Shown here: piece after piece, positions 1,758-23,401 of the stretch
How positions within the stretch are numbered: position 1 is the stretch's first letter
Layout of the letters: the number at the start of each line of letters is the position of its first letter
DNA from: a virus
Length of the DNA stretch: 38,392 bases
Virus record (IMG/VR): IMGVR_UViG_3300030099_006052
Coordinates: 1 to 38,392 of that record
Strand: one strand, 5' to 3'
Notes under the pieces: generated by a model
Databases searched by the model: none
Told to the model about the DNA's origin: nothing
The model's input: only the letters and a program-made list of their open reading frames with translations
Translations under genes and position numbers: made by a program

Positions 1758-3065
1758 ATGCTAAAAAAATTTATAGAGGGTGTTAAAGACGTTTTACCAG
1801 CGATCGGTGGCACTATTGGATATGCTGTTGCAGGCCCTGCAGGAGCAGCTCTTGGTTCCGGTTTAGGCTCTATCGTCAGAGGAGATCCTGGTCAAGAAGC
1901 TTTTCAAAATGCATTATTAGCTGGGTCCATTGGTGCTGGTGGTCAACGTTTCTTATCTGGTGGCTCAGGACCAATTGGACAATTTTTTTCAAGAGGAACA
2001 ATACCAGGTGTTGTTGGTGACACAGGAATATTAAGATCATTTAGTCAACGTAGTTTTTCTCCAAGTATGACAAAGTTAGGGTTTGGCGGTAAGTATTTAC
2101 CGGTTGAGCCTGAAGTAAGTGCAAGAATGATTGGAGCTAATACTCCTGTTTATGATACAGGCACCGGTAAAACAATCATGACAGGTGGTCAAACAATTAG
2201 TGGAGATACATTAGCAGAATTTGATAGGTTAAAAAACTTAGGCACTGGTGAGAGCGACGTAAAAATATTAGAAATGGCAAGAGAAAATGTTTTAAGTGGC
2301 GAAGCAGGTGGCGATGAGGGCATTTTAAGTCAAGTCTTAAGCTTTGGAAAAGAAAATCCAGAATTAGTATTAGCTGGGGGTGTTTTGTTAGATAGATTAG
2401 GTTTTTTTGATGAAGGTGATAAAGATCAATTACCTAAGCCACCAGAAATAGGCTCTCAAGGTTCACTGCCTGGAGGCATAGCTAGATTAGTAAATCCTGT
2501 TTTGACTGCAGGTGGTCAGTTCTCATATGACATGAGTGCAAACGGTGGCATCATGAGGGCAAAAAAAGGTAAGCAAGCTAAAACGGTTGCTCCAGATGAT
2601 CTTGAAGAGTTTTTAAATGATCCAAGTAGATTTATTCAAACCTCTCCTAATGCTCCTAAACTTTATGACAGAGATCAAAAGTTTAAGGTTCTTGAAAGAC
2701 TAGGTATTGTAGGTAGAGCAGCAGAGGGTATGTTAATGGAACGAAGGTTTAACCCTGAGGGCGGTTTTCAAGAAATGAAAGAAGGTAACATAGCAAGCTT
2801 TCAAGAAAACAGTCCAAGAAGAGATTTATTTTTAGAAAGAGATGGTCCAATATCCGATGACCGTGGATCACCGGACAAGGACACTGTATTCGCAAAACTA
2901 GCTGATGGGGAATTTGTAGTTAATGCTGACACAGTCGCCGATATAGGTTATGGTATGGGTGCAAAAAGTTTAGATCAGGCAAAAGAAATGGGTGGATCTT
3001 TCTTTTACGGATTACAAGATGCTCAAAAGAAGGGTATATTAGGTAATATGGTAGGTATGGCATAA
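1758..3065 (+). CDS. Glycine-rich virion/ejection-type protein (435 aa)
   Basis: Residues 14-42 form a glycine-zipper hydrophobic stretch (IGYAVAGPAGAALGSG), a pattern seen in proteins that insert into or line membranes. The C-terminal part contains DTVFAKLADGEFVVNADTVA (about residues 379-398), a D-x-V-x-A-x-L-x-x-G-E-F-V-V-N motif that recurs in phage tail and tape-measure-like proteins. AGGGGA lies 8 nt before the ATG. The stop codon overlaps the next start as TAATG, so the two genes are probably coupled. It is the first of five consecutive structural genes ending at the endolysin, and I infer an internal virion or DNA-ejection protein. It is not a classical tape measure, being short and without long coiled coils. 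Confidence 0.6.
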   Translation: MLKKFIEGVKDVLPAIGGTIGYAVAGPAGAALGSGLGSIVRGDPGQEAFQNALLAGSIGAGGQRFLSGGSGPIGQFFSRGTIPGVVGDTGILRSFSQRSFSPSMTKLGFGGKYLPVEPEVSARMIGANTPVYDTGTGKTIMTGGQTISGDTLAEFDRLKNLGTGESDVKILEMARENVLSGEAGGDEGILSQVLSFGKENPELVLAGGVLLDRLGFFDEGDKDQLPKPPEIGSQGSLPGGIARLVNPVLTAGGQFSYDMSANGGIMRAKKGKQAKTVAPDDLEEFLNDPSRFIQTSPNAPKLYDRDQKFKVLERLGIVGRAAEGMLMERRFNPEGGFQEMKEGNIASFQENSPRRDLFLERDGPISDDRGSPDKDTVFAKLADGEFVVNADTVADIGYGMGAKSLDQAKEMGGSFFYGLQDAQKKGILGNMVGMA

Positions 3066-4018
3066 TGGCAACTCAAGAACAAATTATTAGACAAGCACCT
3101 TTTATTGAAAACAGAACGGAACAGCTTTTACAGTCTGTGTTCGGACCTAGCGGAGTTGCTAATGTAGCTCAAACAATCCCTGCTGCTAGTGTTGCAGCAT
3201 TTCAACCTTTACAGAATACTGCTTTTTCAGCAGCAAATACTGCAGCCAGTCAAGGTGTGTCCTCTGGCATAGGTGCTTTTCAACCTTTTTTAGGGACAGC
3301 TACATCTCAGTTGGGTGCTGCAGGAAGCACCATGGGTGCAGGTATTGGAACAATAGGACAGGGTGTAGGATTTACAGGACCATCAAACGTGCAACAGTTC
3401 ATGGATCCTTATCAACAACAAGTTACTCAACAAGCTTTAGCTGAGATTGACAGACAGGCAAATATAGCTAGACAAACAGCAGCAGCTCAGGCGATAGGAG
3501 CAGGTGCCTTCGGTGGTGGTCGTGAGGGTGTGCAAAGAGCTGAACTTGATAGAAATTTACAAGATATTAAATCAAGAAGAATTGCAGAGGATCTGCAGAG
3601 AAACTTTTTGCAGGCTCAACAACAGCAACTTAGAACCGCAGCTACTTTGGGTCAATTAGGTCAACAAACTTTGGCCGGTGGCATCGCACAAGCAGGATTA
3701 GGAGAACAACTCGGTGCTCTAGGCAGTAGAGCTCAGCAAGCAGGTTTTGCAGACACACAACAATTATTAGGACTTGGTGCATTACAACAACAACAAGAAC
3801 AAATGCAACGTGATGTGGCTCGTCAAAATGTTTTAGAGGCACAAAGAGAACCGTTTGGTAGAATACAGTTCGCTTCGGATATTTTAAGAGGAGTGCCTTC
3901 ATCTCAACAAACTTTCGTAACGCAGCCTTCTCCTTCACCATTTAGTCAATTACTTGGTGCCGGTGTTGGTTTAGCGGGGATTAGCTCTTTATTAAACCAA
4001 AGCGGATTTAGTATCTAA
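3065..4018 (+). CDS. Gln/Ala-rich virion protein (317 aa)
   Basis: The product is low in charge and very rich in Gln, Ala and Gly. A central helix-forming section (about residues 115-270) contains FMDPYQQQVTQQALAEIDRQ and AIGAGAFGGGREGVQRAELD. I recall this Y-x-x-Q-V...AFGG-G-R-x-x-x-x-x-A-E arrangement from structural proteins of uncultured marine phages, but their role is unproven. It starts in a TAATG overlap with the preceding gene and ends in the same kind of overlap with the next. It is probably an internal or tail-associated protein released during ejection. Confidence 0.6.
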   Translation: MATQEQIIRQAPFIENRTEQLLQSVFGPSGVANVAQTIPAASVAAFQPLQNTAFSAANTAASQGVSSGIGAFQPFLGTATSQLGAAGSTMGAGIGTIGQGVGFTGPSNVQQFMDPYQQQVTQQALAEIDRQANIARQTAAAQAIGAGAFGGGREGVQRAELDRNLQDIKSRRIAEDLQRNFLQAQQQQLRTAATLGQLGQQTLAGGIAQAGLGEQLGALGSRAQQAGFADTQQLLGLGALQQQQEQMQRDVARQNVLEAQREPFGRIQFASDILRGVPSSQQTFVTQPSPSPFSQLLGAGVGLAGISSLLNQSGFSI

Positions 4019-6693
4019 TGAATGACATATACAACAGAAAAATGTTTGTTCAGGGCTTCAATCGAGGCAGAAGAGTTAGTCGATATGGTTTACCTGCCGG
4101 AGCTGGTCAAGATAGTTTGGGTGGTGCCTTATTAGGTTTTGATGTTTTTGGTGGTTTTGAAAAAGCAAAAGATTTAAGAACTCAAGGTATACAAGACCCT
4201 GAGGGATCATACCCTTACGCTAAAGAGGGTTTAAGTCAATTATTTAGCACTGTGCCTGAATATTATTCACAAGGGTACAATCAAGTATTAGCTCCTTTTT
4301 TAGATGTTGCAAAACAAGGTATTGGTGAAGTTGCGATCGGTTTTGGTGCTTCAAGGGGGACTGTCTCTAGATCAGGTTTATTGGATCCTGCCGGTAGATT
4401 TGAAACAGAAGCTAACCCATATGGTCTTCCAGTAAAACCAGGCTTGTTTGGCAACCCACGTGAAAACATGATTATTGCCTTTGATCAGGAATACCCAAGA
4501 GGCAGTGAGAAAAGAAAAGCTTTCATAGTTGATAAGGCACAAGAGCCTGGTTTTAGTTCTAAGCTAGCTATGTACGGTGTATCTCAAACAGAAATTGCTG
4601 CTTTAAATGATAGAATTATAGAAGCAGTCGGTCCTCCTGATCCTCAGTTTGAAACAAAAGATGACTTTTTAAAAAAACCTGGTTCTGGTTATCAGGCAGG
4701 AGAAAACAATTTAATTAAGCTTCTTCAAGGAGAAACTTTTAAAGAAACAAATCCTGGTGATCTTAATGTTATGCAGGAGATCATTGATGCAAGAAAAAAA
4801 GAAGCACAAGGCGACGACCTAGGTGAGCAAGAAAAAACTAATTTAGAGGGAGGTTCAACCGGCACTGAACCAGGTAGTGATGAAAATATAAGTGACTATG
4901 AAAAAGAGTTAGTGGGTGAATTGCAAAGTGCTGAAGATCAAAAAGAAGCTTTTAACTTTGAAGATGAAGTAGATAAATTAAAAAAGATTTTATCAGAGCA
5001 AACTGATGTCGATGATCCTACAACACCTGCTCTACTTCTCTTACAGTTAGCCTCAAATTTAATATCTGGTAAAACAAGTGAAAGAGGTTTTACTGGTTTC
5101 TTAGATGTATTAGGTCAAGCCAGTCAACCTGTTTTAGACAGTGCTATAAAATTATCTGCTGCAGAAAGAGCTAGAAAACAAGAAATAGGTGCATCAGCAG
5201 TCGCTCTGGCTTTAGAAAAAGAAAAAGATTTAATAGAGGCTGCCCAGGCTCAAGCAGATAAGGTTCTTGATTTGAATGAACCTTTTGATGAAACTAGATT
5301 CATTCATGAATTAAGAATAGGACCTAATGGAGAAAAGCTTGGTTACACGGATACATTACCTATTCCTGTCAACTCACTTGCACAAGCAGCTCCTTATTTA
5401 GAACTACAGCCTTTTATTGTTCAAACAGAGGACGGTAAAACTAGAACCGTGGATTTACCTAGATTTGAAATGTTAAAAACAGACTCGCCTGGTGAATTTT
5501 TACCTGGTCTTAGAGATCCTGATGGATATTACAAATCTGGTGGACCTCATCAACTTTTACAAGAAATACTAAAAAATATGTCTGTTGCTCAATCTTTCAC
5601 ACAAAACATATTAAATGATGAAGAGTCTAGTTTTTCTTTAGTGGGTGCTCCTTACTTAGTTCAAAACTTTGCATTTAAAGCTGCCGACATAGTTGATGGT
5701 TTTTTAAATGATAAAGATCTTCAAGCACGGCTAGGTGATGATTTTTCCGTTGCAGGGGTAGAACAATTAAAGGGACAGATACAACAAATTCAAAGTGATG
5801 ATAGGTATGATCAACCTCAAAAAGATATAATGGTGCAAAACTTATTACTCGAAGCATCTGGTTATAATTACAGAAACGCTTTAGTGGTAAAAAGTGAGGA
5901 GTTAATAAACGCTCCAATAAATGTCGGCGGTCAAGTTTACACTCTTAGAGAACTAGCTTTAGCAGAACCAGGAACTTTTGAAAATCAAGAAGTCATAATA
6001 GAAGGCGCAACAACTGATTTAATGTTAAAATCTGGTAACACATTGAGGTTAGAGGGTGATGAAATAATAAGAGAAGCAAATGAAAAAATAAATACTATTG
6101 TAAGAGCATTGAATGCTAGTCAGATAGGTTACAACGTACAAGATGGTCAATATGATATAAGACCCATAGACAGTTTCGATGATCAAGCAATAAGTATGAA
6201 TGTGTTTGGTAAAAATTTAAAAATATCAAATAAGATTTCGCAAGTTCAAACTTATTCTACTTTATTAGCTTTTGGTTTTGCTCAAACAATTCAACCTGAT
6301 CAAAGATTGTTGAAAGACACTATTGAAAAATCATTGCAGAACTTTTCTATTACAGACTTAACATCTGGTCCTAAACAGGTTAGAGGCCGTGTAGAGGCTT
6401 ATCAAAAATTGTTAGAAGACTCTTATAATAACATTATTAATAATACATTTACTGATGCCTACGCTCCAAGATATCAATACTTTGATGGTAAAAAATCAAT
6501 AACTGAGTTTAAAGGAAATGATGCTATTACATACGCTGGTAGTAATCAGAATAATTTAAATGTTAATTTCAATGCTCAAAACACAGGTGCAAACCAGTCC
6601 ATAAACACTGGTCAAAATAATGCAGCGAAAGATAATTATTATAATTTAACTGAGTTTTTAGAAGAGGTGAACAGGGAGGCTTTGACACAATAA
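4018..6693 (+). CDS. Large internal virion-type protein (891 aa)
   Basis: A long hydrophilic product. The N-terminal 200 residues are Gly/Pro-rich, residues about 260-330 are strongly acidic (GDDLGEQEKTNLEGGSTGTE and beyond), and the remainder is mostly helical with a Asn/Gln-rich C-terminal tail. No enzymatic motif is evident. It is bounded on both sides by TAATG overlaps. The series of 435, 317, 891, 925 and 187 aa products followed by a lysozyme resembles in size and position the internal core proteins of podoviruses (compare T7 gp14-gp16), but I see no sequence similarity to those, so the role rests on context only. Confidence 0.6.
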   Translation: MNDIYNRKMFVQGFNRGRRVSRYGLPAGAGQDSLGGALLGFDVFGGFEKAKDLRTQGIQDPEGSYPYAKEGLSQLFSTVPEYYSQGYNQVLAPFLDVAKQGIGEVAIGFGASRGTVSRSGLLDPAGRFETEANPYGLPVKPGLFGNPRENMIIAFDQEYPRGSEKRKAFIVDKAQEPGFSSKLAMYGVSQTEIAALNDRIIEAVGPPDPQFETKDDFLKKPGSGYQAGENNLIKLLQGETFKETNPGDLNVMQEIIDARKKEAQGDDLGEQEKTNLEGGSTGTEPGSDENISDYEKELVGELQSAEDQKEAFNFEDEVDKLKKILSEQTDVDDPTTPALLLLQLASNLISGKTSERGFTGFLDVLGQASQPVLDSAIKLSAAERARKQEIGASAVALALEKEKDLIEAAQAQADKVLDLNEPFDETRFIHELRIGPNGEKLGYTDTLPIPVNSLAQAAPYLELQPFIVQTEDGKTRTVDLPRFEMLKTDSPGEFLPGLRDPDGYYKSGGPHQLLQEILKNMSVAQSFTQNILNDEESSFSLVGAPYLVQNFAFKAADIVDGFLNDKDLQARLGDDFSVAGVEQLKGQIQQIQSDDRYDQPQKDIMVQNLLLEASGYNYRNALVVKSEELINAPINVGGQVYTLRELALAEPGTFENQEVIIEGATTDLMLKSGNTLRLEGDEIIREANEKINTIVRALNASQIGYNVQDGQYDIRPIDSFDDQAISMNVFGKNLKISNKISQVQTYSTLLAFGFAQTIQPDQRLLKDTIEKSLQNFSITDLTSGPKQVRGRVEAYQKLLEDSYNNIINNTFTDAYAPRYQYFDGKKSITEFKGNDAITYAGSNQNNLNVNFNAQNTGANQSINTGQNNAAKDNYYNLTEFLEEVNREALTQ

Positions 6694-14819: not shown

Positions 14820-16322
14820 TTGAAATACGAGAAATTTAGAGAGATATTTAAGGGTTTGGATAGAGCCTATGGTGTCTATTATAAAGGTGAAACAAAGGAG
14901 AATGGTAAGCTTTCTGGTAAAGCTTACATTAAAAAAGAGCCTTTGTTTGATCAATACTATGATGCTCATCTAGACGGTAAGGACCCTGGATTAGGAGTAA
15001 TTCCTATCATGGACGATTCCAATTGTTTTTGGGGTTGCTGTGATATTGATAAATATCCTCTAGATTTCAAAGCCATAATAAAAAAATTAAGAAACAAAAA
15101 TATTCCTATGATTGTGTGTCGTTCTAAGAGTGGCGGGGCACATCTATTTCTTTTTGCTAAACAGCCTGTGCCTGCATCTTTAATGAGAACTAAGTTATCA
15201 GAGATAGCTGCTTCTTTAGGATATGCAGATTGTGAGATATTTCCAAAGCAAGAAGAGATAAAAAAAGATAGAGGAGATACAGGTAATTTTTTAAATCTAC
15301 CTTATCACGGTGGTGATGAGAGTATGAGATATGCCATGGATGATGAGGGCAACTCACTGTCTGTGGAAGAGTTTTATCAATTATATGATAAATATGTTTT
15401 GACTCCAAAAGAACTGAAAGATGTAAAGGTTGTTGAAGAGTCAAGAGAGTTAAAGGATGGTCCACCTTGTTTGGAAACTTTGATGGCTGAGGGTTTCCCT
15501 GAAGGTACAAGAGACAATGCTTTGTATCAATACGCAGTGTATGCAAAGAAAGCTTTTCCTGATCACTGGCAAGATAAAATATCTGAGTTCAATCATAAAT
15601 ACATGGACCCAGCGTTATCTATAAACCAAGTAAATAAAACGATCAGGCAACATGAAAAGAAAGAATATGCGTACAAGTGTAAAGATCAACCAATGTGTTC
15701 ACATTGTAATTCTAATTTATGTCGTCAAAGACAATTTGGTATTGGTGTAGATTATGAACATAAGTTTGGTGATTTGACAAAGTATCAATCCGATGAATCT
15801 GTTTGGTTTCTAAACGTTGATGGTAGGCGTTTAGAGTTGACCACAGATAGCCTGTTCGAGCAGTCTAAGTTTCGAAAAGCTTGTATGGATAACTTAAATG
15901 TACTCCCAAATCCATTAAGTAATAGAGACTGGACTGCTCGTATTCAGCAGCTACTACAATCAGTCGAAATAATAGAAATGCCCAAAGAGGTTAGAAAGGA
16001 AGGTCGCTTTGAACAACATCTCGATAATTTCATTAATGATCAAGGTAAGGCACTCAATATTGAAGAGATTCTTATTGGAAAAGCCTGGTCAGAAGACGGA
16101 AAAATCTACTTCAAAATGTCTTCACTAGAAGAATATTTAATGAAGAAAAGGTTTACTGAGTTTACTACAACTCAGATGGGAGCACGTATCAAGCAAATAG
16201 GTGGTGGTGACACTCGTAAGAGAGTTCGTGGTCGCTTGGTTTACATGTGGTACGTGCCCGACCAAGAGAAAGAAGAGGTAAATTTAGATTTACCATCTAT
16301 GAAGGAGGAGATACCATTTTAA
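14820..16322 (+). CDS. AEP-type primase/primase-polymerase with SSB-like C-terminal tip (about 500 aa)
   Basis: I place the start at TTG 14820, which has GGGAG 5 nt upstream; TTG 14808 and GTG 14814 are in frame but overlap the terminator tract or the ribosome site. D75-I-D77 (CCDIDKYP) and SKSGGAH (102-108) match the D-x-D and S-x-H motifs of archaeo-eukaryotic primases, and NFLNLPYHGG (156-165) follows as in phage and plasmid members. Residues 228-260 (GTRDNALYQYAVYAKKAFPD) resemble a PriCT helical domain. Cysteines 287, 293, 296 and 301 form a likely zinc or Fe-S site. The protein ends MKEEIPF, very like an SSB tail. It should prime lagging-strand synthesis for the polymerase at 18914-20830. 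No DnaB-type helicase is present, so one of the SF1/SF2 helicases or a host enzyme may unwind. Confidence 0.78.
   Translation: MKYEKFREIFKGLDRAYGVYYKGETKENGKLSGKAYIKKEPLFDQYYDAHLDGKDPGLGVIPIMDDSNCFWGCCDIDKYPLDFKAIIKKLRNKNIPMIVCRSKSGGAHLFLFAKQPVPASLMRTKLSEIAASLGYADCEIFPKQEEIKKDRGDTGNFLNLPYHGGDESMRYAMDDEGNSLSVEEFYQLYDKYVLTPKELKDVKVVEESRELKDGPPCLETLMAEGFPEGTRDNALYQYAVYAKKAFPDHWQDKISEFNHKYMDPALSINQVNKTIRQHEKKEYAYKCKDQPMCSHCNSNLCRQRQFGIGVDYEHKFGDLTKYQSDESVWFLNVDGRRLELTTDSLFEQSKFRKACMDNLNVLPNPLSNRDWTARIQQLLQSVEIIEMPKEVRKEGRFEQHLDNFINDQGKALNIEEILIGKAWSEDGKIYFKMSSLEEYLMKKRFTEFTTTQMGARIKQIGGGDTRKRVRGRLVYMWYVPDQEKEEVNLDLPSMKEEIPF
16303..16308 (+). promoter_or_regulatory. Ribosome binding site that points to an AUU start
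   Basis: A perfect AGGAGG ends 7 nt before ATT at 16316. No ATG, GTG or TTG in the methyltransferase frame lies between it and the first conserved motif, so this site decides the start. Confidence 0.65.
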
Positions 16323-17404
16323 AACATTTAGATTTATTCTCAGGTATAGGTGGATTTAGTCTTGGTTTAGAGGAGGCAGGATTAGTTGATACGGTGGCTT
16401 TTTGTGATTGGGAAGCTTACTGTCAAGAAGTTTTAAGAAAACATTGGCCAGGCGTGCCAGTGTATGGAGATATAAAGGAGCTAACACATGAAAGACTCAG
16501 AGCAGATGGAATTGATTCCATCGACATCATCACAGGAGGATACCCCTGTCAGCCTTTCTCAGTCGCTGGACGACAAAAAGCTGAAAAGGATCCGAGACAT
16601 CTCTGGCCAGAGTATTTTAGGCTTGTCAAAGAACTCAGGCCAACTTGGGTCATTGGAGAAAACGTTAGTGGACACGTTAAACTCGGTCTCGACACCGTAC
16701 TCGAGAACTTGGAGAGTGAAGGTTACTCAACAAGGACGTTTAGTATTTCAGCTTCGAGCATCGGTGCCAACCATCAACGGGAAAGGATCTGGGTTATTGC
16801 CCACGCCAACGACACAGGAGATAGAACATCAAAACATCAATTTAACAAAGACAGGGAGAAGATTATCAAAGGACGGGAAGAGCAGTCACAGTTTGAACTT
16901 AGCAGATACGGTGAGGGTTTGGAGAACTCCAGATGCTCACAGTGGCCGTGGAGCTTCGAGCAAGGAAAGAATGAAGATGAAATTAGAGAAGGGTATGCCA
17001 ATCAGTCTGAACGATCAAGTGGCACATCCAAACTTGATGTGGCCGACTCCAAGGGCATCAGCAGCGATGGCAGAGGACATCAAGAATATACAGAAGCGGG
17101 GCACAGAGAGGGGCAGGTTGGAGGAGAGGGTGGCTCTAAGGTGGCCGACTCCAACAACAAACGACAGCAAGAACAACGGGGGAGCATCTCAACTACGATC
17201 AGGCAGGAGAGGTTATGGAAAGAATCTAAATGCTGTAGTAGCGCAGAGATCTCAAAATGGTGGGAGTCTGAACCCAACGTGGGTCGAGTGGCTCATGGCT
17301 TACCCAAAAGGGTGGACAGACTTAAGTGCTTAGGTAATGCAGTTGTGCCTATCATTCCATACCTGATTGGTAAAAGTATTCTAGAGACATACGACATTGA
17401 GTAA
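16316..17404 (+). CDS. DNA (cytosine-5) methyltransferase, probable AUU start (362 aa)
   Basis: Transfers a methyl group from SAM to C5 of cytosine in DNA. Motif I LDLFSGIGGFS (residues 5-15), motif IV GGYPCQPFS with catalytic C78, motif VI ENV (115-117), motif VIII NHQRERIWVIA (about 153-162) and motif X-type LGNAVVPIIP (339 onwards) are all present, so the enzyme should be active. The first conserved residues follow an ATT codon with AGGAGG 7 nt upstream; a GTG at 16247 is in frame but lies inside the primase gene and would add 23 unrelated residues. Residues about 165-310 (target-recognition part) are very polar and low in complexity, apparently because another frame of the same DNA is also coding (16488-17333). 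No cognate restriction enzyme is adjacent, so it likely protects phage DNA. It overlaps the next start by 8 nt. Confidence 0.88.
   Translation: MLKHLDLFSGIGGFSLGLEEAGLVDTVAFCDWEAYCQEVLRKHWPGVPVYGDIKELTHERLRADGIDSIDIITGGYPCQPFSVAGRQKAEKDPRHLWPEYFRLVKELRPTWVIGENVSGHVKLGLDTVLENLESEGYSTRTFSISASSIGANHQRERIWVIAHANDTGDRTSKHQFNKDREKIIKGREEQSQFELSRYGEGLENSRCSQWPWSFEQGKNEDEIREGYANQSERSSGTSKLDVADSKGISSDGRGHQEYTEAGHREGQVGGEGGSKVADSNNKRQQEQRGSISTTIRQERLWKESKCCSSAEISKWWESEPNVGRVAHGLPKRVDRLKCLGNAVVPIIPYLIGKSILETYDIE
16488..17333 (+). CDS. Out-of-frame gene nested in the methyltransferase gene, W/L-P-T-P protein (281 aa)
   Basis: A 281-codon frame lies wholly inside the methyltransferase gene, shifted by one base. 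It has its own AAAGGAG (16474-16480) exactly 7 nt before ATG. The product carries four related T-P motifs: LPTP (104-107), WRTP (145-148), WPTP (185-188) and WPTP (219-222), and ends LNPTWVEWLMAYPKGWTDLS. I recall a phage and bacterial family with S-x-T-W...Q-L-x-x-S-x-P...LLPTP...LNPxWVEWLMGxPxGWT, often next to C5 methyltransferases, and this product fits it from about residue 70. The same DNA read in the methyltransferase frame gives the equally typical GRVAHGLPKRVDRLKCLGNA, so both frames look selected. The function is unknown. Confidence 0.65.
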   Translation: MKDSEQMELIPSTSSQEDTPVSLSQSLDDKKLKRIRDISGQSILGLSKNSGQLGSLEKTLVDTLNSVSTPYSRTWRVKVTQQGRLVFQLRASVPTINGKGSGLLPTPTTQEIEHQNINLTKTGRRLSKDGKSSHSLNLADTVRVWRTPDAHSGRGASSKERMKMKLEKGMPISLNDQVAHPNLMWPTPRASAAMAEDIKNIQKRGTERGRLEERVALRWPTPTTNDSKNNGGASQLRSGRRGYGKNLNAVVAQRSQNGGSLNPTWVEWLMAYPKGWTDLSA

Positions 17405-21118: not shown

Positions 21119-21279
21119 TGACAGACACGGGTAAATACAAATCGGTAGCGGTTAAGAAACCAAGCTACCAAAAACTCAAAAGCATGGCTGAACAAGATTA
21201 TAGATCTGTTGCTAGCTTTATAGAGTTCTTAGTTGACAAGGAAGCTGAAGAAAGGAGAAAGTCAAATGCCAACAAGTAA
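21118..21279 (+). CDS. Small ribbon-helix-helix-like protein (53 aa)
   Basis: I take ATG 21118, which overlaps the micropeptide stop as TAATG; a GTG at 21049 is in frame but would add 23 residues that merely re-read the micropeptides. The product YKSVAVKKPSYQKLKSMAEQ, then DYRSVASFIEFLVDKEAEER, has a short beta strand followed by two helices, the layout of Arc/CopG-type DNA-binding proteins, which act as dimers or tetramers. It could be an early repressor of phage or host promoters. The 3' end overlaps the next gene by 14 nt. RHH assignment is from pattern alone. Confidence 0.6.
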   Translation: MTDTGKYKSVAVKKPSYQKLKSMAEQDYRSVASFIEFLVDKEAEERRKSNANK

Positions 21280-21898
21280 AAAGAAAGAGCCAGAGAATAT
21301 TCAAGTACCTGGAATAAAACTACAAGACTGCGTAATTACAGTGAAGGGGAGTTCACCTTTAATTTGTAACAAGTGGTCAGAAAAAGCAAAACAAGAAATC
21401 AGAGATAAGCAGATGAAAATAGCTAAAGCCGCAGGTAGAGAAGCGAAGGATCCTGAAAAGTGTTTCAACGATTCTTTATACAAGATGCCTGACGGTTCAG
21501 GTTATGGTTTTCCTGCAATTGCATTCAAGGCAGCTGCGGTTAACGCTTGCTCTCACATTGAGGGTTTAACAAAAGTCTCTGCACGTGGATCATTTCACAT
21601 ACCTTGTGATCTTATTCCTATCAAGGGTAAGCCAATCATGAGAGAGGATATGGTTCGTGTAGGTATGGGCGCTGCTGATCTTAGATACAGAGGTGAGTTT
21701 ACAGATTGGGAAGCTAGCATTCCTGTTAAGTATAACTCTAACGCTTGGTCAATTGAACAGTTGATCAACGTATTTAACGTTGCTGGATTTGCATCCGGTG
21801 TTGGTGAGTGGAGACCACAGAAGAATGGTAACTTCGGTATGTTCTCAGTCACTGAGGTTCAAAAGATGGAGTATGATAAGGAGGTAAAAATTGCCTAG
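21266..21898 (+). CDS. Conserved phage protein of unknown function (210 aa)
   Basis: Starts at ATG 21266 with AAAGGAG 8 nt upstream, preferred over a TTG 33 nt earlier. The sequence contains VKGSSPLICNKWSEKAKQE, a Lys-rich helix, SGYGFPAIAFKAAAVNACSH, MREDMVRVGMGAADLRYRGE, and near the end GFASGVGEWRPQKNGNFGMF. I recognise this combination from many dsDNA phages, where it lies near recombination or replication genes, but no function is established that I know of. The conserved G-V-G-E-W-R-P loop near the C-terminus suggests a nucleic acid- or nucleotide-binding role (inference). It overlaps the next gene by 8 nt. Confidence 0.7.
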   Translation: MPTSKKKEPENIQVPGIKLQDCVITVKGSSPLICNKWSEKAKQEIRDKQMKIAKAAGREAKDPEKCFNDSLYKMPDGSGYGFPAIAFKAAAVNACSHIEGLTKVSARGSFHIPCDLIPIKGKPIMREDMVRVGMGAADLRYRGEFTDWEASIPVKYNSNAWSIEQLINVFNVAGFASGVGEWRPQKNGNFGMFSVTEVQKMEYDKEVKIA

Positions 21899-22400
21899 AG
21901 TAAAAGTAGTAAGTGATAAAGAGTACGTTTGGAGAGAAGGTACAAGATATTCAGTGGAGGCACAGGTTGCTGGAGAGCATCTTGAGTCTTTGGAATACAA
22001 GCACGGGGCTCTCACCCCAGACCTGGTTGTGCGGGAGGCTAGAAAGAAGAGTTCACCTCTGCACCCATGCTTTACGTGGGACGATACAAAAGCAGCTGAG
22101 AGCTATCGAAAGTTTGAGGCCAGGAAACTAACGGGATCAGTCCTCGTCGTGACTCAGCAAACAACTGAACCTGTTCGTGCTTTTCATAGTGTTCCTATAA
22201 CCATAACGTCTGACGATGAGCAGGCTCGAGGTTATGTTTCACTGGACGTGGCGATCGCAGACGAAAGTCATAGAAACCATTTGTTGCAACAAGCGTTTCG
22301 TGATTTAGCTACCTGGAGAAGTAAATATGCGGAGTTGAAAGAACTTCATAGTATTTTTTCCCAGGCAGATCGCCTTGTAGAGAAATATTCTATTAGATAA
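21891..22400 (+). CDS. Conserved phage protein of unknown function (169 aa)
   Basis: TTG start overlapping the previous stop by 8 nt, with AAGGAGG 4-5 nt upstream. The product contains ALTPDLVVREARKKSSPLHP, CFTWDDTKAAESYRKFEARK, EPVRAFHSVP and a C-terminal helix (RDLATWRSKYAELKELHSIF). The L-T-P-x-x-V-V...S-P-L-H-x-x-F-x-W-D-D order is familiar from many phages of Gram-negative hosts, always paired with a partner like the gene upstream; the function is unknown. The WDD motif and helical tail suggest a DNA-binding or replication accessory role. The gene ends just before a region able to form nested stem-loops. Confidence 0.7.
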   Translation: MPRVKVVSDKEYVWREGTRYSVEAQVAGEHLESLEYKHGALTPDLVVREARKKSSPLHPCFTWDDTKAAESYRKFEARKLTGSVLVVTQQTTEPVRAFHSVPITITSDDEQARGYVSLDVAIADESHRNHLLQQAFRDLATWRSKYAELKELHSIFSQADRLVEKYSIR

Positions 22401-22591: not shown

Positions 22592-22814
22592 AGTAGGATG
22601 GTCGATGGAAGAAGAAATACAAGAGTACAGAGAGTTGTACGAAAAAGTAGAAGAGGCTGTGATACTATTAAAAGCAGCTCAAGAGTTAAAAGCTTTTCTT
22701 TATCTTGATCCTCTACAACAAGAACATTTTAAGGTTACAATTCATGATCTTGAAAGTTTCTTGTCTGTGATAGATGAAGCTTCGACTGTTGAGATTGACC
22801 AGTCGCCCGTTTAG
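22581..22814 (+). CDS. Small helical protein (77 aa)
   Basis: ATG with GAGGAG 5 nt upstream. The product is almost entirely helical and acidic (EEEIQEYRELYEKVEEAVIL, then LKAAQELKAFLYLDPLQQEH), compatible with a coiled-coil dimer. No membrane span and no metal site. Its stop codon lies exactly where the G-rich period-5 tract begins, so its transcript must run into that tract unless processed. It is not a TRAP-type protein, which is beta-rich. The function is unknown. Confidence 0.55.
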   Translation: MVSKVGWSMEEEIQEYRELYEKVEEAVILLKAAQELKAFLYLDPLQQEHFKVTIHDLESFLSVIDEASTVEIDQSPV

Positions 22815-23269
22815 GCAGGAGAGGTGGGGCTGGGTACGTTGTGATGAGGTAGTTTACGGCAGGAGTGGTGAGGTCGGGTACGTTCTGGTGGTAGCAAGGT
22901 GTGTTGTGGCAGGCGAGGTTAGGTGAGTTACGTTGAGGTGAGCTTAGTTCAGGAGCGGTGTTTACATGGCAGGTGTGGCGAGTTGTGTCTCGGTGGGTTA
23001 CGATTGCGGACAGGTTGAGTCAGTTCGGGGTATGGTGTTGTGAGGCGTGGATTGGTGAGGCAGGTATGGAAAGCAGTGGTAAGTCCAGTCGTGGTTTGGA
23101 CCGGCATCTTACGGCAGGCGGGGCGAGGTCGGGTTAGTTGCGGAGGGGTAGGTCACGGCAGGCGTGGTAAGTTTGAGCGAGGTATGGTCGGTCTTGTTGC
23201 GGCAGGTGGGGTGAGGCGCTGTCAGGTGAGGAATGGTGTAGGTATGGCGAGGCTGGAAAGGAGTTTTGA
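22814..23269 (+). repeat. G-rich, strand-asymmetric period-5 repeat tract
   Basis: About 455 nt without a convincing gene. The + strand is rich in G and T and poor in C and A, unlike the AT-rich surroundings. Read in fives it gives runs of N-N-G-(G/T)-(T/C), e.g. CAGGC GTGGT AAGTT TGAGC and CAGGT GTGGC GAGTT GTGTC. The third base is mostly G over most of the tract, with occasional 1-nt register shifts. A larger unit begins with GGCAGG, found at 22814, 22858, 22908, 22968, 23059, 23113, 23157 and 23201 (steps 44, 50, 60, 91, 54, 44, 44). Period 5 is incompatible with codon structure, so frames such as 23040-23285 are by-products. The tract lies between two small + strand genes, so it is probably transcribed. 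Confidence 0.85.
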
Positions 23270-23401
23270 ATGGATGATAAAATAAAAGCGATGCAGGTAG
23301 TAAATGATTACATAAGATTTGACCGTGCATCATCGAACGTGACCGCAGCTTGGGAGACTGTGTTACGTTACATAAAGAGTTTGGAAAAGAGTGTAAAATA
23401 A
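23270..23401 (+). CDS. Small protein, 43 aa
   Basis: ATG preceded by AAAGGAG (23257-23263) at 6 nt, directly after the period-5 tract. The 43-residue product (MDDKIKAMQVVNDYIRFDRA, then helix SSNVTAAWETVLRYIKSLEK) is a helical, mildly basic protein. Base composition returns to that of the rest of the genome exactly here. A TGTTACGT octamer, the same as the iteron-like motif at 25186-25426, lies inside it at 23361. Family unknown. Confidence 0.6.
   Translation: MDDKIKAMQVVNDYIRFDRASSNVTAAWETVLRYIKSLEKSVK

Follow-up and report, generated by a model that had tools for sequence, protein, structure and literature searches.

A G-rich pentamer tract in a viral genome is very probably the guide array of a VIPR system that differs from that of phage SUSP1

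The window that we analyzed is a viral DNA of 38,392 nt (positions 1 to 38,392 of IMG/VR record IMGVR_UViG_3300030099_006052), in which a G-rich tract of the plus strand begins at position 22814. With a probability that we put at about 95%, this tract is the array of guide RNAs (vrRNAs) of a phage-encoded VIPR system. VIPR, or Viral Interference Programmable Repeat, is a CRISPR-like system of viruses that was reported in a preprint of April 2026 (PMC13142463), and comprises a viral RAMP protein together with vrRNAs in which GGY alternates with NN, there being 9-16 repeats of the pentamer GGY/NN "or a related consensus" (PMC13142463). The NN letters of a vrRNA pair with DNA, one base is left unread between the pairs, and genes of rival phages are repressed (PMC13142463). 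The Vipr protein has a RAMP-type G-loop and thumb, vrRNAs co-purify with it, and a small accessory gene adjoins vipr, published as vap1-6 (PMC13142463). Seven VIPR types have been distinguished, array architectures vary, some guides are aimed at rival VIPR loci, and the reference is the type II system of Escherichia phage SUSP1 (PMC13142463). What we describe here is of this already known kind, its architecture differs from the SUSP1 reference, and motifs of methyltransferases and of HIT proteins come forward as candidate targets.

The pentamer lattice and its GGCAGG-marked units

The plus strand of 22814-23269 contains 207 G, 117 T, 77 A, and 55 C. Within it, the G positions are autocorrelated at a lag of 5 (0.308, z 6.7), with more peaks at lags of 10, 15, and 20, and these four peaks were equalled in none of 1000 dinucleotide shuffles, which bears out the 5-nt periodicity claimed in an earlier note that had been made from the letters alone. 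When laid out in the lattice register, the pentamers of the window read YNNG(G/T), with a pyrimidine at the first position in 87%, G at the fourth in 89%, and G or T at the fifth in 95%. Also as the note had it, there are eight exact GGCAGG hexamers that are 44-60 nt apart but for a single gap of 91 nt (the unit starts in Table 1; successive gaps of 44, 50, 60, 91, 54, 44, and 44 nt). Each GGCAGG corresponds to a single 4-nt lattice step (GGCA), after which the pentamer rhythm resumes, and in the window family the units so delimited hold 8-12 pentamers apiece.

The array sits intergenic inside a run of same-strand genes. The TAG stop of the 77-aa small ORF that precedes it overlaps its first G, and a small gene like that at 23270-23401 follows the array in relatives too (L005_10 cluster). 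An ORF check gave no open reading frame of a normal kind across 22814-23252, and the tract is non-coding, as well as being no simple slippage repeat, both of which the note had rightly held. It had also placed the tract at 22814-23269; here, the start stands but the end does not, since the lattice stops at about 23252, and 23253-23269 includes the ribosome-binding site from which the small gene that follows would be translated. Rfam returned no match for the window and none for 16 array loci, a blastn search of the region against phage records gave no match, and a literature search for G-rich phage pentamers under that description turned up nothing useful.

Table 1. Features of the window locus, and tRNA genes located beside the array in four relatives
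Feature	Position	Strand	Remarks
vipr gene, RAMP/Cas7-like, 210 aa	21266..21898	+	ATG at 21266; open frame from TTG at 21233
Second gene, presumed vap, 169 aa	21891..22400	+	motif LHxxFEWDDxxAA, C-terminal helices
Small ORF between second gene and array, 77 aa	22581..22814	+	homologues in 14 loci
Very probable vrRNA (guide) array	22814..23252	+	about 8 units, each starting GGCAGG; YNNG(G/T) lattice
Unit 1, 44 nt	22814..22857	+	NN = GA GG TG AC GT GA AG AC
Unit 2, 50 nt	22858..22907	+	one 6-nt step; NN = GT GA CG AC CT GT AA GT GT; variants common to many relatives
Unit 3, 60 nt	22908..22967	+	NN = GA TA GA AC GA GA TA CA GC GT AT; also in L009, L011, L013
Unit 4, 91 nt	22968..23058	+	probably a pair of guides, with no intact GGCAGG at their junction
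Unit 5, 54 nt	23059..23112	+	NN = AT AA GT AA CA GT TT CC AT AC; limited to the window and its near-twin L002
Unit 6, 44 nt	23113..23156	+	NN = GG GA CG TA GC GG AG AC
Unit 7, 44 nt	23157..23200	+	NN = GT AA TG GA AT CG TT GC; NN identical in most relatives
Unit 8, last	23201..23252	+	NN = GG GA GC CA GA AT GT ...
Ribosome-binding site AAGGAG	23258-23263	+	
Small downstream gene, 43 aa	23270-23401	+	
tRNA-Cys beside array (relatives)	L006:3092-3165, L009:3299-3372, L012:6508-6581, L015:6756-6827		

Linked genes and comparison with known systems

Upstream of the array is a gene whose family profile (63 homologues) matches the PDB entry 36pp_D, "SUSP1 Vipr protein", with an E-value of 1.7e-14, and as a single sequence the window vipr matches PDB 36pp with an E-value of 5e-5. 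Moreover, a Foldseek search with the AF2 model of the window Vipr (pLDDT 92.5) led to type VII Cas7 (8z4j) and type III-A Csm3 (8do6), with E-values of about 1e-6 to 5e-6, and the vipr family has a conserved loop, GxGEWRPxKxGxxG, in which the glycines are invariant or near-invariant, a possible counterpart of the RAMP G-loop. For the second gene, the AF2 model (pLDDT 91.8) gave weak winged-helix-like folds in Foldseek, the profile of its family did not match the SUSP1 gene beside vipr, and Pfam, NCBIfam, and PADLOC gave no family for it. The vipr family likewise has no Pfam family and no PADLOC match, and both families are listed as of unknown function in PHROGs (phrog_4652, phrog_15946). Presumably, the second gene (21891-22400) is the accessory vap of its VIPR type.

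Both families accompany the arrays at large. Among 135 array loci, 93 have the vipr family and 85 the second family, with the next-best family reaching 18, and the second gene lies at a median distance of 10 nt from the array. All copies of both are on the array's strand, and nearly all are upstream of or beside it. When the count is confined to IMG/VR loci that were found by the lattice pattern (see below) and have at least 2 kb upstream, 68 of 78 carry vipr, the second gene, or both; the orders counted are vipr-second gene-array (46), vipr-array-second gene (24), and array-vipr-second gene (4). A tie to recombination genes, as mentioned in the earlier note, was not borne out, Vipr and this one other being the recurrent families around the arrays.

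In likeness to VIPR, a phage-encoded Vipr RAMP protein is adjoined by a small second gene, intergenic tracts of GGY/NN-like pentamers stand on the RNA strand, and two units of relatives have targets that are read with a 1-nt skip, the skipped base being the wobble base. When run on the SUSP1 genome, the same lattice detector found tracts on both sides of vipr that have a repeated 3' tail and lack GGCAGG. While this tail is repeated for each guide in SUSP1, the window units are tail-less and abut at the 4-nt GGCA, and the window scaffold is relaxed to G(G/T)(T/C/A) compared with the published GGY. In further contrast to SUSP1, the second gene of the window is of another family than the gene beside the SUSP1 vipr, and our targets belong to a methyltransferase motif and to a motif of HIT proteins. 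The window thus has neither the conserved 3' tail nor the SUSP1 second gene, which are features of VIPR type II (the SUSP1 clade). With its Vipr match on the one hand, and a different tail, different marks, and a different second gene on the other, the window is therefore VIPR but not of the SUSP1 type.

A likeness to class 1 CRISPR-Cas (type III-A and type VII) is seen in the Cas7/Csm3 fold of the Vipr model and in an array of interchangeable guide units, and by analogy may extend to a periodic protein-RNA filament. However, the window is without CRISPR repeats, only the 6-nt GGCAGG being constant, and where CRISPR spacers are contiguous, the guide here would be noncontiguous and phage-carried, its variable letters being dinucleotides. 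CRISPR RAMPs break the pairing at every sixth base, without a 5-nt RNA step.

Guide units among relatives and their targets

As relatives, we took 17 related IMG/VR loci that were found with the protein encoded at 21233-21895. A matching tract is present in 16 of these 17 records, and its location is the same wherever a locus reaches that far. Pieces of the tract match among relatives with 71-100% identity, and many are rearranged. When cut at GGCAGG, the arrays fall into discrete types of unit, which reappear from phage to phage in changing order. Comparison of orthologous units (14 groups, 40 variants) gave variable columns in 18%, 5.5%, 2.3%, 4.7%, and 14% of cases at pentamer positions 1 to 5. 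Here, 10 of 256 NN columns are variable versus 41 of 256 for Y plus K (p 5e-6, to be taken as indicative, the alignment columns not being fully independent), and since the former rarely vary when compared with the latter, the dinucleotides are constrained while drift affects Y and K of the scaffold. The earlier view, namely that inner letters vary and the spacing is selected, accordingly holds between different units but fails between orthologous ones, where NN is conserved.

Beyond the relatives, a degenerate lattice pattern picked out at least 120 IMG/VR stretches, the great majority being long arrays (up to 1583 nt), set in DNA with a GC content of 36-71%. In bacterial genome contigs, the same pattern gave 119 matches, most of which were discarded as chance; five are long high-scoring arrays, probably on prophage or phage contigs, and six are short weak ones. 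As the pattern contains GGCAGG, loci found by it are not independent evidence for the mark; GGCAGG is also present in the relatives and in four cultured phages, which were found through the protein and are thus independent of the pattern. No array is present in the first 14 kb of HTVC023P, HTVC027P, and 023Pt_psg01, which have a related polymerase.

Unannotated VIPR arrays adjoining vipr and second-family homologues were noticed in Saal (NC_023580; L270:3591-3832), UmaThurman (NC_031249; L271:4357-4662), Ecliptus (OP820472; L272:3990-4195), and Cy-LDV1 (BK059895; L273, minus strand, 4278-4454 and 3520-3676), with UmaThurman gene 40, annotated over the array, probably being spurious. In phage DSL-LC04 (OR003939), an unannotated gap (L030, minus strand, 5072-5365) contains a lattice tract without GGCAGG, and the adjoining gene, annotated as a helix-turn-helix regulator, has a weak match to the vipr family. 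Four relatives have a tRNA-Cys gene whose end is just a few bases away from the first unit of the array (Table 1), and there, processing at the 3' end of the tRNA could release the 5' end of the guide RNA precursor. A 1.6-kb array (L050, minus strand, 1968-3550) has a near-identical insert, GGGAGCAGCAGCATCCGGCG(C/T)AAAGGGATGGAC, that recurs several times, finds no match in Rfam, and could be a processing element.

For targets, units of the window family were scanned against IMG/VR for exact matches under the 1-nt skip rule. One unit of L005 (NN = AC CA AT GG AA GC GT CC GT GA), queried with its last nine NN (18 bases), has 16 exact matches, and all 16 read (Q/H)(I/M)GNAVPV(E/D) in frame 0. At least 15 of these are in methyltransferase-like frames, with the exception located in a short frame (L310), and all five that were examined in Pfam proved to be C5-cytosine DNA methylase (PF00145). 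Variants of this unit in two arrangements, carried by other relatives, read YKQIGNAVTV and KQ(F/L)GNAVAV, which, judged by their letters, look like forms of the methyltransferase motif. A 49-nt unit of relatives (NN = CA AT CA TT AT CC CG TA AA) has two matches, which both read HIHLIPRYK in frame and both fall in HIT-domain genes (PF01230). For the methyltransferase and HIT guides alike, the skip base is the codon wobble position. Comparison patterns from the window family (units 5, 3, 6, and 7) had 0, 0, 3, and 10 matches, which places the 16 and two in-frame matches to single families far from chance.

The methyltransferase and HIT guide units are absent from the window's own array. Of the units that it does have, 3, 5, 6, and 7 were scanned; no exact target in IMG/VR was found for unit 3 (first nine NN) or unit 5, and the three matches of unit 6 have no gene or frame in common. 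With unit 7, four of the ten matches are in wobble phase and read ANRISQFT on the opposite strand (L326, L328, and L330, which are near-identical in the matched protein, and L329), making this motif of a marine phage protein a weak candidate for its target. A search for more window-family targets on candidate rival contigs or family contigs found none that was convincing. When the guides of all arrays were compared with 2.6 Mb of sequence, allowing up to 2 mismatches, the 1-nt skip gave matches for 37 of 792 guides versus 26 when shuffled, and skips of 0, 2, and 3 nt for 30, 17, and 19 of 792, and any excess with the 1-nt skip is slight at best. With vipr and second-family genes as the targets, the all-array guides stayed near the shuffled control. 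A guide thought to be aimed at vipr itself (QMGKAV) was dropped, as its 16 exact matches are methyltransferases. Single guides from two other arrays, L233 (from an Acetatifactor MAG) and L149, read conserved vipr motifs with 1-3 mismatches in several loci, one motif being GMGTADLRYR (L233) and the other LSL(L/I)DAGG, which is read on the opposite strand; such guides fit the preprint's remark on guides against rival VIPR loci.

The window itself encodes a C5-cytosine methyltransferase (16247-17404; PF00145) with the motif CLGNAVVP; inside this methyltransferase gene, a second open frame of 281 aa (16488-17333) runs on the same strand and has no Pfam match. The near-twin and L003 also encode a C5 methyltransferase, and all three are without a methyltransferase guide. 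Conversely, relatives with methyltransferase guides show no methyltransferase in their available contigs, these being incomplete and related to one another. Self-avoidance, whereby carriers of the methyltransferase are without a guide against it, is a lead from this comparison.

Proposed mechanism, alternatives, and significance

As a VIPR system, the array would be transcribed and its transcript processed into single-unit vrRNAs, with GGCA marking the boundaries and each unit between GGCAGG hexamers making up one guide. Vipr would coat the guide at one pentamer per step, the G(G/T)Y letters being the scaffold that the protein binds, while both N letters would face outward and pair with DNA, with one target base unread between pairs (NNxNNxNN...). 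The guides would be aimed at protein-coding motifs of other phages, and as the unread base would be at the codon wobble position, synonymous changes would give no escape. Going by the experiments of the preprint (PMC13142463), target binding would repress transcription in rivals, and here the second gene would probably act as an accessory vap. Among its options, the earlier note had listed an RNA track on which a protein moves in 5-nt steps, and this plausible idea matches a vrRNA bound by Vipr, a RAMP protein; its interpretation is partly supported overall, having overlooked the guide letters, the two upstream partner genes, and the interchangeable units.

More tentatively, and as something that we would rather doubt than assert, the 4-nt GGCA of a tail-less array might be the only punctuation of one-guide modules that move between phages, guides directed to the best-conserved codons within protein families (e.g., QIGNAVPV of C5 methyltransferases) might hit many unrelated rivals, and carriers of the methyltransferase might drop the guide.

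A different reading takes the array to be a decayed one, formerly functional and now drifting, by which both the GKY scaffold and the 91-nt unit 4, without an internal GGCAGG, would be explained. In fact, the second scaffold G is T in 28% of window pentamers and 27-28% across the window family, compared with 11% in other arrays and 3% in the four cultured phages. However, the relaxed scaffold is common to relatives, two of whose guides exactly match natural motifs, the NN of orthologous units are under constraint, and both vipr and the second gene have open frames and are conserved, all of which makes decay improbable. Less probable still is a purely structural binding track of RNA or ssDNA, such as for a TRAP-like ring or a recombination filament, wherein the variable letters would be meaningless. 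The binding sites of TRAP are (G/U)AG triplets spaced about 5 nt apart, and the resemblance to these lies in G-containing RNA motifs with a 5-nt step and repeated G positions. Yet both the motif and the protein family are different, position 3 of the window pentamers being A in 33%, unlike (G/U)AG, and the linked gene being a RAMP; moreover, the variable letters are informative here, as orthologous units keep NN while the scaffold letters drift, and the NN strings of two relatives spell conserved protein motifs in frame. Scarcely credible is a DNA-level element (an origin, R-loop, or switch-like recombination region) selected for G richness and strand bias, given that the array, G-rich on one strand and reshuffled between relatives though it is, always lies on the strand of the linked genes, keeps its lattice in phages of 36-71% GC, and is tied to a guide-RNA-binding protein family, with nothing in support of the origin, R-loop element, or transcript protector that the earlier note had also listed.

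Read as a VIPR guide array, the tract adds an independent marine family to a system that came to light just months ago, in a preprint with two systems as its main basis, and brings evolutionary evidence that the dinucleotides carry information. The units that are shared and shuffled among relatives amount to a natural experiment on guide turnover, and the in-frame targets at conserved enzyme motifs fit the wobble-skip idea, in which one guide hits a whole gene family. Moreover, the system becomes testable in laboratory strains through cultured phages of the same architecture, namely Saal on Mycobacterium smegmatis and both UmaThurman and Ecliptus on Gordonia.
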